From Candidatus Goldiibacteriota bacterium (GTDB lineage: Bacteria; Oederibacteriota; PGYV01; DYJU01): 64,000 nucleotides of DNA. Positions 1-59,320 of this stretch are shown here, piece after piece. The notes beneath the pieces were generated by a model, which was given only the letters and a program-made list of their open reading frames with translations, was not told the DNA's origin and did no database searches. Position 1 is the first letter of the stretch; each line of letters starts with the position of its first letter. A program made the translations under genes and the position numbers. The stretch is taken from NCBI GenBank assembly GCA_938034975.1, contig CALHNI010000031.1:1-64000 (forward strand), given 5' to 3'.

Positions 1-118
1 CATTTTATTTAAATTTTTAGACATTTTTTTAACAAAAAAGTTTCTTTTTAAAATTAAATTTAATATTTTGAATTATTATATAATTAAAAGAAATATTTTG
101 TCAATATTATACTTTTAA

Positions 119-329
119 CGGTAAAAACGCATTTGAAAATCCGTTTTTACGGAAATATAAAATATTTTTGGCTTTTTTGCTTATTAATTTTTTATTTTTA
201 TAGTAAATTACTTTAATTCACCTGTTTTTTAATTTTAAAAACAAATATACTCTTAAAATTCTTATTTGTTTATAAACCTTTTTATATATTTTCTCTTTTC
301 CACTGAAAAACGCTAATGCGTTTTTCAGG
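119..329 (+). repeat. Double-hairpin MITE-like element, copy A (about 211 bp)
   Basis: Left hairpin GTAAAAACGCATTTGAAAATCCGTTTTTAC (121-150), right hairpin CTGAAAAACGCTAATGCGTTTTTCAG (303-328); nearly identical to 19681-19891; flanked by TTTTAA on both sides (113-118, 330-335). Confidence 0.85.
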
Positions 330-9428: not shown

Positions 9429-9535
9429 CCGCAAAAACGTGTTAGAAAACATTTTACGGAAAAACAAAATATTTTCATAATGCATTATTTTATTCACAAG
9501 TTTTTTAATTTAAAATAAATAATAAGTATTATTTT
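9429..9535 (+). repeat. Degenerate/truncated copy of the double-hairpin element (copy D)
   Basis: ccgcaaaaacgtgttagaaaacattttacgg followed by the conserved body tttattcacaagttttttaatttaaaata. Confidence 0.55.
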
Positions 9536-11876
9536 AAAAAGGCACTAACATTTCATGCGGAACAAGTTGATCATAATTATTCCGTGGATTTTTCATTTGA
9601 AAATAAAAATATCCCCTATCTAAACCAGAATAAGTTATTTTTATCTTATGCAAACCTTCTTTTAGGTTAATTGTCGTTTCTCCTCTCCATGCTCTATATT
9701 CAGGTTTATTTGAAATTAATTTTTCATCATCAATATAAAGTTCATAAATTTGATGTCCCATTGCCTGTATATAAAAAGTATATATCCCGGTTCTGTCTAT
9801 ATTTATACTGCCTGTCCAGGAAGCATAAAATTCACCTGCTTCAAAACCAGGGTCAAACCAATCATAAAAAATAACCGGATCAATTCTATCGGCTGTTTTT
9901 TCACCATTTTTATTATAAGCTACAAATCTTAAACCGTTTTTTAATTTCGCTGTATCAAATGACTGTATTTCTTCCTTGGAAACTTTGTAAATAATAAAAC
10001 CTAATTCATTATCAGTATACGGCTTATAAACAGGTATATATTCACCATTGGGATAAACTTTCTGAAAAGCACTAAGAATACTAACTTCCCAGAAAGCAGG
10101 CATCATATATATATAATAATCTGCATCAGTATTAACAGGTGCTGGAAAAGTTTTACCAATGATAAATCTTTGAGCAACTTTGTTTTTAACTTTTTCATAA
10201 ATCAATTCAAAATCCGGCAACATAAACTCATATGGAAGAACTGCAACTATTTTTTTTCCTCTTTTTTCTTCAATCTTTTGTAATTCAATTAATTTTTCTG
10301 CGCTTTTTCTCCGCCATGCTTCTGTGGAAATCCATTTTGAAGGATCTTTCCCATAAACAAAAAAATATTTGTAATAATTATCTACCATATCAACTGTTAT
10401 CATAATAAAAAATAAAATAATTAAAAACACATTTGTCTTTTGCTGAAATTGATTTCTTAAATGTATATAAACACGCGATAATAAAAATGCCGCTATTATT
10501 ATGGCTATTGGCATTGCTAAAATTGTGCGAGAAGCATGAGGTGCGTCAACAAACATTATTCCACCATGAGCAAAACCTAAAAACATTATCATAATAATTC
10601 CTGCAAAAACAGAACCCGTAATAGCACGAAACGCAAAATATCCAATACCCGTTATAATAAAAACACCTGTTATAAAACCTGCCATGGGCATAGCATTTGA
10701 GTTATATATACCAAATCCGTAATCACCATATAAATTATAGATTAATAAAGTTTTTTTTGCACTATCCATATATATTTTTAAATATAGTAAAATTTTATCT
10801 GGCAAAGTTAATTTAATATTATCTGTTATATTTTTTTTATTTTTCATTAAATCTGCTCTTTTTTGAGCGATGGCTTTTTGAACCTCTGTATCAATATTGT
10901 TTTTATTAAAAAGAAAATGCCCAATTATGCGATGAGAAAAATTTTTATACTGGATAAAATACAACCCCAAGGGAGCAAATATTAAAAATGCAATTAAAAC
11001 TGAAACTGTCAACTTTTTTATATTTTTTGTAATGTAGGATTTTCTTATTATCAGTAAATATATGAGTATAATACCAAAAATGACCGGAATAGCACGCGAA
11101 GCATAATAAGTATGTTGTGTAAGTCCAAGGGTTATACCAAAAAGTATAAAATCTGACCATGCCATATATTTAAACAAACGAAAGAAAAAATAGAGACATA
11201 TAATCAAATATAAGGATGCTATACCAGCATGGAACATAATTCGATTAAAAACTACATTATAATAAAAATATGAATACAGAAAAGCACCTATTATTGCAGT
11301 CTGAATACCCCCAATAAGCCTCAATAAAAAATATAAAGCAATAACACCCAAAACACCAAGGAAACCCATAGCGGTTCTTGCCTCTGTCACGCCCACACCA
11401 AATATTTTAAACCATGCAGTAAGGGCATAAACGTTAAGTGCAGGATTATCCGCAACTGACCTTACATAAATAGGCAAACTTGTTCCTGTTCCTAATGTGT
11501 TCTCCCCTTTCATTATTTTCATAGCATCATAAGCAAATGCAGTTTCATCCCTGTGAAGACCAATTGGTATCTGATCTATTTTATAAAACCTGAAAAAAAC
11601 TGAAATAACTATAATGGTTAAAAATATAAACAACTCAAAAAATGATGGTTTGTCAGGTGTATTTTCTTTATTTTCATCAAAAAATCCAGAAAAAATATCT
11701 TTTTCCGGCTTAGAAATCAATTCAGTAATTATTAAAGAAATAAGTCCTAAACCAAAAAAAATTAAACCATATATTATATTTTTTTTAATATAAAGAAAAA
11801 ATTGTCCAACAAAAGAAAGAATAAAAAAAATTAAAATAAAAATTATCGGGACTTTTAAATTTATATTTTCTCTCAT
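9534..11876 (-). CDS. Glycosyltransferase family 39/PMT-like membrane protein with C-terminal PA14-like domain
   Basis: Multi-TM; HRDETAFAYDAMKIMKG loop typical of GT39-type transferases; C-term AGEFYASWTGSINIDRTGIYTFYIQAMGHQIYELYIDDEKLI...INLKEGLHKIKITY. Confidence 0.75.
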   Translation of the reverse strand: MRENINLKVPIIFILIFFILSFVGQFFLYIKKNIIYGLIFFGLGLISLIITELISKPEKDIFSGFFDENKENTPDKPSFFELFIFLTIIVISVFFRFYKIDQIPIGLHRDETAFAYDAMKIMKGENTLGTGTSLPIYVRSVADNPALNVYALTAWFKIFGVGVTEARTAMGFLGVLGVIALYFLLRLIGGIQTAIIGAFLYSYFYYNVVFNRIMFHAGIASLYLIICLYFFFRLFKYMAWSDFILFGITLGLTQHTYYASRAIPVIFGIILIYLLIIRKSYITKNIKKLTVSVLIAFLIFAPLGLYFIQYKNFSHRIIGHFLFNKNNIDTEVQKAIAQKRADLMKNKKNITDNIKLTLPDKILLYLKIYMDSAKKTLLIYNLYGDYGFGIYNSNAMPMAGFITGVFIITGIGYFAFRAITGSVFAGIIMIMFLGFAHGGIMFVDAPHASRTILAMPIAIIIAAFLLSRVYIHLRNQFQQKTNVFLIILFFIMITVDMVDNYYKYFFVYGKDPSKWISTEAWRRKSAEKLIELQKIEEKRGKKIVAVLPYEFMLPDFELIYEKVKNKVAQRFIIGKTFPAPVNTDADYYIYMMPAFWEVSILSAFQKVYPNGEYIPVYKPYTDNELGFIIYKVSKEEIQSFDTAKLKNGLRFVAYNKNGEKTADRIDPVIFYDWFDPGFEAGEFYASWTGSINIDRTGIYTFYIQAMGHQIYELYIDDEKLISNKPEYRAWRGETTINLKEGLHKIKITYSGLDRGYFYFQMKNPRNNYDQLVPHEMLVPF

Positions 11877-11924: not shown

Positions 11925-12117
11925 CTGAAAAATCGCAACAGGAAATTGCGATTTTCATGAAAAAAAATATTCTTAAAAAAATTAAATCTTTAAAATAATT
12001 CTTATGTGTTATTTTTTTATTAAAAAACGGATGAATAAAGTAATGGATAAAAAAAATAAAAAATATAAAAATATTTTGTTTTTTCGTAAAACGCATTTTT
12101 AAACGCGTTCTTACGGT
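11925..12117 (-). repeat. Double-hairpin element, inverted copy E
   Basis: ctgaaaaatcgcaacaggaaattgcgattttcatg hairpin at one end and cgtaaaacgcatttttaaacgcgttcttacgg at the other; reverse-complement body contains tttattcatccgttttttaataa. Confidence 0.65.
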
Positions 12118-19419: not shown

Positions 19420-19500
19420 TTTTATCACTTCCATTTATAAAAATTTTAACAACTGCTTATTTTATTCAATCAATCTTATTATGTTAATGAACCTGTATAC

Positions 19501-19904
19501 CAGTAAAAACGCATTAGAAAACGCGTTTTTTACGGAAAAATTTTTATTATTTTTATTAAACAAATTTTTATTTTTATAACGCCTTACTTTTATTCACACG
19601 TTTTTTATTTAAAATAAAGAACTAGTGTTGTTTTAAATATTTTATTATTTTTTTCTGAAAATCGCAATATTTTAATGCGACCGTAAAAACGCATTAGAAA
19701 ATGCGTTTTTACGGAAATATAAAATATTTTTGGCTTTTTTGCTTAATAATTTTTTATTTTTATAGTAAATTGCTTTAATTCACCTGTTTTTTAATTTTAA
19801 AAACAAATATACTCTTAAAATACTTATTTGTTTATAAACCTTTTTATATATTTTCTCTTTTCCCCTGAAAAACGCTAATGCGTTTTTCAGGTGCGATTTT
19901 CATG
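19501..19904 (+). repeat. Double-hairpin element copy C, interrupted by copy B
   Basis: Left hairpin 19501-19535; right hairpin ctgaaaatcgcaatattttaatgcga interrupted at 19680 and resumed at 19892 with tgcgattttcatg. Confidence 0.85.
19681..19891 (+). mobile_element. Double-hairpin MITE-like element copy B, inserted into copy C with 5-bp TSD (TGCGA)
   Basis: CCGTAAAAACGCATTAG...CTAATGCGTTTTTCAGG; imperfect TIRs CC(GT/TG)AAAAACGCATTAG; TSD TGCGA at 19676-19680 and 19892-19896. Confidence 0.85.
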
Positions 19905-19920
19905 TATGCTATAAATACAA

Positions 19921-24200: not shown

Positions 24201-27200
24201 CTACAATTCTTCTCCTACCTTCCTTACAATTATTAACTTTTTAATCAATTTCTGTGTTTTACCTGTTAATTCATTCCTGCCTTCTATTATTAATGGATAA
24301 ATTCCTGTGCTTACATTCTGTCCGGTTGATGTTTTCATATCCCAGTTAATTTCACCATATATCATCTCTCCATTTAATACTCTTACTATTTCTCCTGCTA
24401 TATTATATACTTTTACTCTTACCTGCCCTTTATTCTTTTTCTCCCATATTATTTTTACATCATTTACTCCTTTATTATCTATTATATACGGATTCGGTAT
24501 TATTTTTATTTCACCTAACACTTCATTTTCTCCTGCATTTATTATTGATACTGTTTTGGTCGCTACTGTTGTAAATCCTGATGATGTTTTTACTTCTACC
24601 TTTATCTCATAAATACCACTGTCAACTAATCTGCCAAAATCATTTTTTCCATCCCATTTTATCCTTGAACCATTCCCGTAATTAAATTCTATTTCCTGTT
24701 CCTTACCTATTAAAAGCACATCATCTATTGAAAGATCAACAACTGTATCTGTTGCTTTTTTCTCTATAATTTGTTTTACCAACTCGCCTGCTGTATTATA
24801 TATGCTTAATTTCACATACTCTTCTACTTTTAATATTTGCACATCATATATATATGTTGTCTCATATCCATAGGCATCTTTTCCACTAATCTTTATAAAA
24901 TATACTCCCTGATCCACATTCTGTCCGTTGCTGTTTAATCCATTCCATTCAAAATCAACGTATTCTTCTCCTATATGTTCTTTTGTTTGAATACCACTTA
25001 TCCTTATTACCAGCAATCCTTCTTCAGGATTATATATATTGCTTTCTTTCCCATTTACCATAAGTTTTACATCTTTTATTGAATCTGCCATTCTTGTATT
25101 TGCCAGTAATGCTATTTTTTCTCCTCCTGAATTGTATATTTCTATTACCAGCACATAAGGGAATGGAACTGGTGTCATTGTAATCGTAGGAGTTATGGTA
25201 GAAGTGGATGTTTCAGTTATTGTTGGTGTTATTGTAAAAGTAAAAGTTTGTGTCGGTGTATTGGTTAAAGTTGGTGTATTTGTCAATGTATACGTATTTG
25301 TGTTAGTTGGAGTTACAGTCCTTGTATATGTATTTGTATTCGTCGGGGTATCTGTTCTTGTATATGTATTTGTTGGTGTATCTGTATTTGTCCGGGTATT
25401 CGTATTTGTAAATGTAAATGTTGGTGAAAAAGTATTTGTTGGAGTATTTGTATAACTTGGTGTATTTGTATCTGTGGCAGTATTAGTATCAGTTCGTGTA
25501 AAAGTAAATGTGGGGGTAAATGTCACTGTAAAAGTTTCTGTCTGTGTATTTGTGTATGTTGCTGTATTTGTCTCTGTGCGTGTATATGTCTCTGTTGGTG
25601 TATTCGTATATGTTCGTGTGTTTGTCTCGGTTGGTGTATTTGTATATGTCCGCGTATATGTCTCGGTTACTGTCTCTGTTGCTGTGTTTGTGTATGTCAC
25701 TGTATTTGTATCTGTTGGTGTATTCGTATATGTTCGTGTATTTGTCTCGGTTGGTGTATTTGTGTATGTCCGCGTATATGTCTCGGTTGCTGTCTCTGTT
25801 GCTGTTGCGGTATTAGTATCTGTTTCAGTTGAAGTATTTGTATTTGTTATTGTTTGCGTTACTGTCTGCGTTATTGTTGACGTTATACTCGGTGTTATAC
25901 TCGGACTTACTGTATTTGTTATTGTCGCTGTTATTGTCTGCGTTTCTGTCCGTGTCATTGTTGACGTTATAGTAAAAGTTATTGTCCGCGTTATTGTAGG
26001 TGTTATTGTTGCTGTTATTGTCGGTGATGTCGTATTTGTTATTGTCCTTGTTACTGTACGCGTCATAGTTTGAGTTATTGTTGAAGTTATTGTCCTTGTT
26101 ATTGTCCGGGTTATTGTCGGTGTTATCGTCTGTGTCACTGTATTTGTCTGTGCCTGCGTTATTGTTAATGTTGCTGTTACCACAACAAACGCAACTGAAT
26201 TTGACCTGCCCACATCATCATACGCTATATTATGCACCCCTGTTGGTGTTATTGTCTGAGTTATTGTTAATGTTATTGTCGGGGTTATAGTTGGTGTATT
26301 TACAATACACCCGCTTATCCCGCATGGTTCTTCCCCACTATTTGAATCCATCACACTTGCACTTTTCCATTCACATACAAGTGTTCCGTTATAATATAAC
26401 GTTAAATATTTATTATCTGAACTCGGGGTTCCACAATTTGCTGAATCTCTTATTTTACTATAATCATTAGTATAATCATGATTCTGCCCATTGCTTCTTC
26501 TTATATAAGTTGTCCCGTTTGCTTCTATATACCCACCTCCACCCGGAAGCAACGGTTCATTATAATTCCCATTGCTAAATCTATGCTCATAATATAAATT
26601 TGTCATTCTGCCTGCACCACAATTTATTGTTCCGTATGTTACAAATCCATTATTGTTTACGCTGTAATTTTTTACATTGGTCCCGCTCCCGAAAAAAACT
26701 CCATGATTATTTGTCTGCGCCCACCATGAAGTATCTGCATCATAAACATAATATCTCCATGTTAATAATCTTACAGGGGACCCTGACTCACTCCAGTTAT
26801 ATATGCGAAACTTTATTCTTGTATCAATATTATTTGAAGCGTCATTACATACCACTAAATCTAATTTATAAGGATCCGGTGTCCCTACTATATTAACAGA
26901 TATTGAAACCTGATTATCTCTGCTTAAACCCTGCGAACAGCTGCCATACACACTGCAATCCCTTATTGGCACTATTAAATTCTTTGTCCCGCTCATTTCT
27001 TTTGGTATCTGTGTTATTATTGTTACATTCCGCCATACATTGCTATACGGTATTACATACCCACCGTTTAACCCGCTAACATCAGTATGGTCTGTACTTG
27101 TTACAGTTACTGTTGTGCTATCATACCACCATGTTGTATTTTTAAATAATCTGCTTGTTCCGCCATATTCCTGATTTGCAAATAGCCAGTCATCACCACA

Positions 27201-48757: not shown

Positions 48758-50302
48758 TTATCTTTGATATACAGGATCGCATTTATAACAGACAATTATC
48801 CGTTTAACATCTGATTTTCCATCAGGTGATTGTAAAACAAGATAATAAAGACCTGTTACTACTTTTGTCCCATTTTTGTTTCTGCCATTCCATTTAAAAC
48901 TACCCTTTTCCGTGGTATATTCACCTTCATTAACTAATGAACCATCCATAGCATATATCTTTACTTTTGTATTATTTGGCACATTATCAACATAAAAATG
49001 TTGACTGCCTTTATCAGGATTAAAAGGATTAGGATAGACATGAGCAGAAGCTATATCTGCAACAGTCGGAGTTATAGTTGCTGTAGGTGTATTTGTTGGT
49101 GAACCTGGTGTTATAGAAGCAAGCGCTGTTAAATCCAAAGTAGGAGTAGAAGTAGGTGGCCTTGGCGCTAATTGCACACAAACCTCTGTTGCTTCTTCTA
49201 AAAGTCCTTCATTGTATGTAACATTTATCGCATTCATTGTATTGCCATCAAATATTCCTGGTCCATTGTCACAGGATATTACTTTATAACAGGCAGTTAT
49301 AGTATTACCTGTTGTATTGCCTTGTTCATCAAAAAAATTTTTAACCCCTGGTGTATTTGCTATAAAATCAACACCATAATAAGGTCCACCATCTATTGAT
49401 CTGTAAATATGATACGCAGTTATTGGATAAGTTCCTGTTTTTGTTGCAGGGTTAAAAGAAAGCCGTGCAGCATCATAACCCAAACTTGTATCTACAGAAA
49501 TATTCACAGAAGAAGGTGGAGAATTTGGCATTGCATCAGCACCTAATGTTAAATAATCATAATAAATAATTATCCTGCCCTTATCTCCTGTTAAACCCCA
49601 GTCTGAATAATCAACACTATCAACATCCGGGGCATGTATAGTTATACTTTTTATATTTGTTGTATCAAACCTATGCCCATTAATTGTCTGATTTTTAAGA
49701 TAATTAATAGATACTGCAAAATATTCATCCCAGATGCGGTCATTTTCACAATTTAATGCTCTGCTTGCTGTAAAAGTTACTGTTCCATCAAAAATTGAAA
49801 CTGGTTGATATATTGTTTCAGGGCAACCATTCATAGCACTATTCAAATAAACATAAAATTTCACATAATCATAACATGACCAGTCCTTTGCATTTGCAGG
49901 ATCATAATTTGAATAATCAGGCATTGGAGTTGGATTACACCCCACATTTTCAAAATAATCATTTTTTAATAAAATATACTGCCCTTTGTTTAGCCATTTT
50001 ATCCGGCCTGCATTTACACCATGCACTGCGCCTGCCATAGGAGACGTAGGATAATTTAAATCAGATGTAATAGGTGTTCCCCCACCTACTAATGGCGGCG
50101 GCGCTCCATATGCTTCCCATTTGTTAATATCATTACTATAACCAATAGGTGCCGTAGGCGAACCTGCTAAAGGTGGATCAAAATCATTTACTAGTCCTTC
50201 CATTCCTCTATAAGCCGGCCATCCAACTATGTATGCAAAAATTTTTATAGTTATTAAAAAAATTAAAATTATAATAATATAAGAAATCGTGCTTTTTTTC
50301 AT
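48758..50302 (-). CDS. Secreted protein with fibronectin-like region, short Thr/Pro linker and FlgD-like/sorting-like C-terminus
   Basis: Signal-like N-terminus; TSTPTLDLTALASITPGSPTNTPTATITPT; C-term SAHVYPNPFNPDKGSQHFYVDNVPNNTKVKIYAMDGSLVNEGEYTTEKGSFKWNGRNKNGTKVVTGLYYLVLQ. Confidence 0.8.
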   Translation of the reverse strand: MKKSTISYIIIILIFLITIKIFAYIVGWPAYRGMEGLVNDFDPPLAGSPTAPIGYSNDINKWEAYGAPPPLVGGGTPITSDLNYPTSPMAGAVHGVNAGRIKWLNKGQYILLKNDYFENVGCNPTPMPDYSNYDPANAKDWSCYDYVKFYVYLNSAMNGCPETIYQPVSIFDGTVTFTASRALNCENDRIWDEYFAVSINYLKNQTINGHRFDTTNIKSITIHAPDVDSVDYSDWGLTGDKGRIIIYYDYLTLGADAMPNSPPSSVNISVDTSLGYDAARLSFNPATKTGTYPITAYHIYRSIDGGPYYGVDFIANTPGVKNFFDEQGNTTGNTITACYKVISCDNGPGIFDGNTMNAINVTYNEGLLEEATEVCVQLAPRPPTSTPTLDLTALASITPGSPTNTPTATITPTVADIASAHVYPNPFNPDKGSQHFYVDNVPNNTKVKIYAMDGSLVNEGEYTTEKGSFKWNGRNKNGTKVVTGLYYLVLQSPDGKSDVKRIIVCYKCDPVYQR

Positions 50303-50373
50303 TATAAAACTCCTTTCTGCTCCTTGAATTTATTATAAAGCAAAAAAGAAATATAGTCAAATTTTTTTTATAA

Positions 50374-50562
50374 CCGTAAAAACATGTTTTTACGGGAAAA
50401 CGAAATTTTTTTATTATTTTTATAATGCATTTCTTTTATTCACCTTTTTTAAGTTAAAATAAAACTTAATTTTGTTTTAATATTTTATTTTTAAAAACTA
50501 ATATTTGTTTTTTTTGTGTTTTTTCTCCTGAAAATCGCAATCTTTTAATGCGATTTTCATAT
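50374..50562 (+). repeat. Double-hairpin element copy F, overlapping the 3' end of the methyltransferase gene
   Basis: ccgtaaaaacatgtttttacggg ... tttattcacctttttt ... cctgaaaatcgcaatcttttaatgcgattttcat. Confidence 0.8.
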
Positions 50563-59228: not shown

Positions 59229-59288
59229 GCACATTTATGTTAAATTTGCCTTATTATACATATTTTATTTTATTTGACAAGAGTTTTT

Positions 59289-59320
59289 TAAAAACGCTTT
59301 TTCTAACGCATTTTTACGGA
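59289..59320 (-). repeat. Single-hairpin remnant of the double-hairpin element (copy G)
   Basis: aaaaacgctttttctaacgcatttttacgg. Confidence 0.5.

Follow-up and report, generated by a model that had tools for sequence, protein, structure and literature searches.

Hairpin-ended MITEs of a Goldiibacteriota genome lie at a fixed distance upstream of predicted promoters and are probably mobilised by an IS1380-family transposase

The window, the whole stretch of 64,000 nucleotides analysed here, corresponds to contig 31 of a 1.93-Mb draft genome (66 contigs, 84% complete). Two small elements lie one inside the other beside the promoter of dnaJ:

19459-19464, minus strand: -10 hexamer of the dnaJ promoter, TAAAAT; the orthologous promoter in genome G001, of the same genus, has no element beside it
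19482-19487, minus strand: -35 hexamer of the dnaJ promoter, TTAACA, 13 nt outside copy C
19495-19500, plus strand: left target duplication of copy C, GTATAC, with its right partner GTATGC at 19904-19909
19501-19903, plus strand: copy C, a subfamily-2 element interrupted by copy B
19676-19680, plus strand: TGCGA, target duplication to the left of copy B
19681-19891, plus strand: copy B, an intact subfamily-1 element, recognised by its sequence and folds
19681-19714: left hairpin of copy B
19864-19891: right hairpin of copy B
19892-19896, plus strand: TGCGA, target duplication to the right of copy B

The nested insertion is real. An earlier note on this DNA had placed copy B at 19681-19891, within the right hairpin of copy C, and both the position and the nesting are exactly as it claimed. 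The 5-bp duplication TGCGA that it described is present on both sides, in flanks that read ..TTTTAATGCGA, copy B, TGCGATTTTCATG.., and belongs to the right hairpin of copy C, into which copy B inserted. Folding confirmed the hairpin ends: the 5' end of copy B forms a perfect hairpin of 34 nt with a 15-bp stem, the 3' end one of 28 nt with a 12-bp stem, and the fold of the element beats all 200 shuffles (z of about -9). Relatives of copy B elsewhere in the genome are 85-98% identical. The two halves of the copy C duplication agree at five of six bases, with one difference.

Further copies are distributed along the window, and those labelled A and F, like copy C, each lie at a fixed distance upstream of a predicted sigma-70-type promoter (offsets are counted outward from the element end):

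119-329, plus strand: copy A, a subfamily-1 element with the duplication TTTTAA
about 99-104, minus strand: predicted -35 hexamer TTGACA beside copy A, at offset 14, with TATAAT 18 nt further on at about 75-80; the promoter reads away from the element
9429-9537, plus strand: partial copy, with only a -35-like TGGACA at offset 13 and no clear -10
11929-12116, minus strand: diverged subfamily-2 copy whose left end has no detected promoter
50374-50560, plus strand: copy F, a subfamily-2 element
about 50355-50360 and 50332-50337, minus strand: predicted promoter beside copy F, TTGACT-N17-TATAAT at offset 13, upstream of an open reading frame of 514 aa (48758-50302)
59286-59319, minus strand: diverged left hairpin with no right partner detected

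Two stretches of the window's minus strand, 785-1800 and 25192-26311, encode large proteins whose long, degenerate repeats are rich in threonine and have a 6-nt/12-nt periodicity.

The family is large. With up to three mismatches allowed, the left hairpin has 131 matches in the genome, and the right hairpin of subfamily 1, to which copy B belongs, has 52; the reversed control pattern gave none in either case. Copies B and F, used as queries, each returned at least 40 scored candidates, and the two sets largely represent different subfamilies. There are two main subfamilies, with elements mostly of about 160-220 bp, in which each end is a near-perfect palindrome. These short elements carry no open reading frame of their own and end in inverted-repeat hairpins, as MITEs do, which bears out the non-autonomous, MITE-like nature that the earlier note had proposed. 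Because many contigs break inside copies, the assembly underestimates the family and the true copy number is probably higher; the starts or ends of contigs C4, C6, C13, C20, C24, C35, C48, C51 and C61 of the source genome (G000) fall within MITE copies. Solo left hairpins with no right partner also occur (L091 1503-1532, L092 1793-1822, L088 2916-2945 and L106 1538-1567); some lie close to gene starts, and each may have moved as a unit of roughly 34 bp.

The earlier note had suggested a search of the genome and related MAGs; across 40 related genomes this returned only weak, short, AT-rich low-complexity matches, which were dismissed on inspection. The hairpin pattern had no match in G001 or in viral contigs. 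Several diverged copies were found on AT-rich contigs of an actinomycetotal MAG, Candidatus Calidifonticultor daggyaiensis (G045; L108 158-191, L207, L208, L210 and L211), and may reflect mis-binned contigs or horizontal transfer. This MAG gave no match to the IS1380 transposase query discussed below, and the few ends of its diverged copies show no promoter peak.

Target duplications were listed for all elements with both ends, as had also been suggested. Exact duplications of 5 or 6 bp flank 30 of these 66 paired copies, where about 1.4 are expected: 19 are of 5 bp (1.03 in shuffled pairings) and 11 of 6 bp (0.36), the null being drawn from 500 shuffled pairings. The family thus shows the target-site duplication typical of MITEs. 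The duplicated sequences include TTTTAA, TAAAA, AAAAT, AAGAAA, TCGTTA, TTTCTA, TACAA and others; since they differ among copies, TGCGA is not a part of the element consensus, an objection that the earlier note had anticipated. An empty site, whose absence would have weakened the case, was found in G001, where dnaJ and groEL are likewise adjacent and 82-84% identical to those of the source genome. The gap between them is 138 bp without an element, versus about 538 bp here. It retains a dnaJ promoter-like sequence, TTGACA-N16-TATAAT, the counterpart of TTAACA-N17-TAAAAT in the source genome, so that copy C appears to have inserted beside a pre-existing host promoter. Together, the varied duplications and the empty orthologous site uphold the reading of the locus as transposition rather than passive duplication.

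The ends, which start with CC, and the AT-rich duplications of 5-6 bp pointed to the IS1380 family, which served as the lead in the search for a mobilising enzyme. The Pfam profile PF13701 matched the source genome six times, each match decayed or cut by a contig end, and G001 once, in an intact copy (element L166). The predicted transposase of L166 scores 286 bits against NF033539 (cut-off 180; 2.9e-85) and 154 bits against PF13701 (cut-off 34.7; 4.2e-45), and these profile matches confirm its assignment to the IS1380 family. The residues D145/D147, D221 and E339 are invariant across six members of the IS1380 transposase alignment. The ends of L166 were set by alignment with other species, and no target duplication was found for this copy; in genome G018, element L168 has a TAAGA duplication on both sides, next to ends that start with CC. 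For L193, an ISEcp1 copy, and for L166, usable ends were not located automatically.

No IS1380 transposase matched on the contig of the window, in agreement with the earlier remark that the window holds no transposase. The wider search for one succeeded in part, with decayed copies elsewhere in the genome and the intact one in G001, but none intact in the draft, which is 84% complete. Transposase scans of viral contigs gave no match, and phage and plasmid collections yielded only IS1380 proteins of about 25% identity. A long-distance hairpin pair on contig C42 was considered as an autonomous element and rejected, as the genes between the hairpins are ordinary cellular ones, one of them nagA-like.

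Three features tie the MITEs to IS1380: the end motif, the length of the duplications and derivatives that contain transposase DNA. The left arm of the MITEs and the IS ends of several species share a layout of CC, about seven bases and CG[CA][AG][AT]T, and a 17-nt layout, CC-N7-CGCRTTAG, is common to MITE and IS ends; the R2 arm of the MITEs resembles the right end of the source genome's own IS. Among the derivatives, L119 has a 91-bp stretch of the transposase gene, 97.8% identical to L160, between a left-type hairpin and an R2 hairpin, and in L161, L162 and L163 an R2-like hairpin is joined to the 3' part of the gene. On this strong circumstantial evidence, an IS1380-family transposase is very probably the mobiliser of the MITEs. 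The earlier note rightly called the element MITE-like and non-autonomous, but it is no orphan type. High copy number, palindromic ends and solo hairpins would also suit repeats of the REP/REPIN kind, which rely on a RAYT (Y1) transposase and lack target duplications. Here duplications are present, their length of 5-6 bp points to a DDE enzyme and the transposase fragments inside copies are of IS1380, so a RAYT link is not indicated and we regard it as highly improbable. As a separate observation, the upstream regions at L160 2587 and at L027 2006 and 3429 are related and carry insertions at almost identical positions, but the inserted elements differ: one region has a full IS1380 copy and the others have MITEs.

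We then considered a feature absent from the earlier note, the placement of the elements relative to promoters, called as consensus matches to the sigma-70-type TTGACA-N16/17-TATAAT and read outward from the element end. At a two-hexamer score of at least 9 of 12, 43 of 121 left flanks have a -35 hexamer at offset 13-14, whereas windows of equal width contain 0.9 on average and 3 at most; the nominal binomial p of 2e-59 treats flanks as independent and is indicative only. A wider window, offsets 12-16, captures 51 of 123 left flanks, against 1-7 in other windows, and TTGACA with at most one mismatch lies at offset 13-15 in 37 of 121, against about 0.6 at each other offset. The peak spans just two to three nt, the spacers between the hexamers are mostly 16-17 nt, and an open frame begins 46-120 nt away at most promoter-facing copies. 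Both subfamilies show predicted promoters at their left ends (18/41 and 11/24), and right ends have a weaker peak (10/90). At just over half of the left ends, no clear promoter lies at this distance. One of these ends is that of copy B: it sits inside a hairpin, and no promoter was detectable at the expected spacing in its left flank. Overall, the left element end is placed about 50 bp upstream of predicted transcription starts, and insertion is not random with respect to these predictions.

Full-length IS relatives share this placement at the four left ends available, which come from G001, G018, G012 and the source genome, four species in all. TTGACA or TTGAAA occurs there at offsets 14, 13, 13 and 13, each followed by a -10-like hexamer 17 nt further, and the right end L061 of the source genome has TTGACA-N16-TATAAT at 14. 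Among 15 ends of distant IS1380 elements, with transposases 22-26% identical, none has a promoter at the fixed spacing. The more distant elements that lack the spacing include two from the same phylum, of about 25% identity. We rejected promoter targeting as a general IS1380 trait.

Such a pattern could arise if the elements inserted nearly at random in AT-rich intergenic DNA and survived, or were kept for regulation, just upstream of promoters. Insertions within genes and core promoters would be purged, and at -50, in the zone of UP elements, an insertion might influence expression. Purging alone, however, would leave the insertions broadly spread. The observed peak is narrow and equal in both subfamilies, which selection alone explains poorly, and full-length IS with different ends share the spacing in other species. 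We consider this account improbable. Somewhat better placed, though still unlikely, is direct reading of a TTGACA-like DNA motif by the transposase, with the promoter link secondary. The -35 offset is indeed as tight as, or slightly tighter than, that of the -10 (s.d. 1.09 versus 1.22). Yet a -10 hexamer matching at five or more of six positions follows 27 of 39 TTGACA sites at the target offset, compared with 4 of 47 TTGACA sites elsewhere in these flanks. Even where the -35 is weak, -10 hexamers are in excess (28/82 flanks, against about 10). The excess at target sites indicates that the signal is the whole promoter and not TTGACA alone.

We therefore favour, with a probability of roughly 0.8, a MITE family that depends for its movement on a DDE transposase of an IS1380 subgroup, supplied in trans, and that prefers targets upstream of promoters. 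From sequence comparison we infer both that an IS1380-like enzyme moves the MITEs in trans and that the fixed promoter spacing reflects target choice at integration. Each hairpin would hold two facing transposase recognition arms; use of the two outer ends would mobilise the element in full, and pairing of an outer with an inner site could yield solo hairpins. The complex of transposase and ends might find the promoter through RNA polymerase holoenzyme bound there or through the DNA of the promoter. If the holoenzyme guides it, the staggered cut would fall in the UP-element region, at about -50 to -45. Insertion would have one preferred orientation, with the left end towards the promoter, and gene and promoter would be spared. 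Polymerase tethering and recognition of promoter DNA fit these data alike; the dependence on the -10 leans towards the whole promoter. The more specific proposal, that a subgroup of IS1380 recognises promoter-bound holoenzyme and integrates in one orientation at about -50, is tentative, and we hold it at slightly less than even odds.

Most insertion sequences choose their targets loosely. If the proposed preference is true, promoter finding accurate to two or three bases would show how mobile DNA can build up well over 100 copies while leaving genes unbroken, the insertions would form a natural promoter map for a lineage without transcript data, and a coupling of transposase to transcription in bacteria would become directly testable. 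Expression may also be tuned by the insertions, given that the duplications fall in the UP-element zone. We found no precedent in the open-access literature for IS1380 MITEs that target the region upstream of promoters.

The elements can be compared with several known systems. They share CC ends, short AT-rich duplications and probably a DDE transposase with the IS1380 family (ISEcp1, ISSsu5, and Bacteroides and Priestia members), from which the MITEs differ in being gene-less with palindromic ends. Like REP/REPIN sequences they are high-copy intergenic palindromes, but their duplications of 5-6 bp are clear and their probable partner is of the DDE type. Other bacterial MITEs, such as Correia elements, are likewise small, non-autonomous inverted-repeat elements with a duplicated target, often near genes. 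Correia elements carry their own promoters (review of bacterial MITEs, PMC10969869), whereas here the promoter is the host's and lies outside the element at a fixed distance. As for placement, integration of yeast Ty3 and Tf1, and of piggyBac near transcription starts, is likewise fixed with respect to the start of transcription; if the holoenzyme does guide the elements described here, they would be a bacterial parallel to promoter tethering in yeast. The enzymes are unrelated or very remote, the transcription machinery is different and tethering is only proposed here; a study of piggyBac takes IS1380 transposases as its outgroup (PMC10813416).
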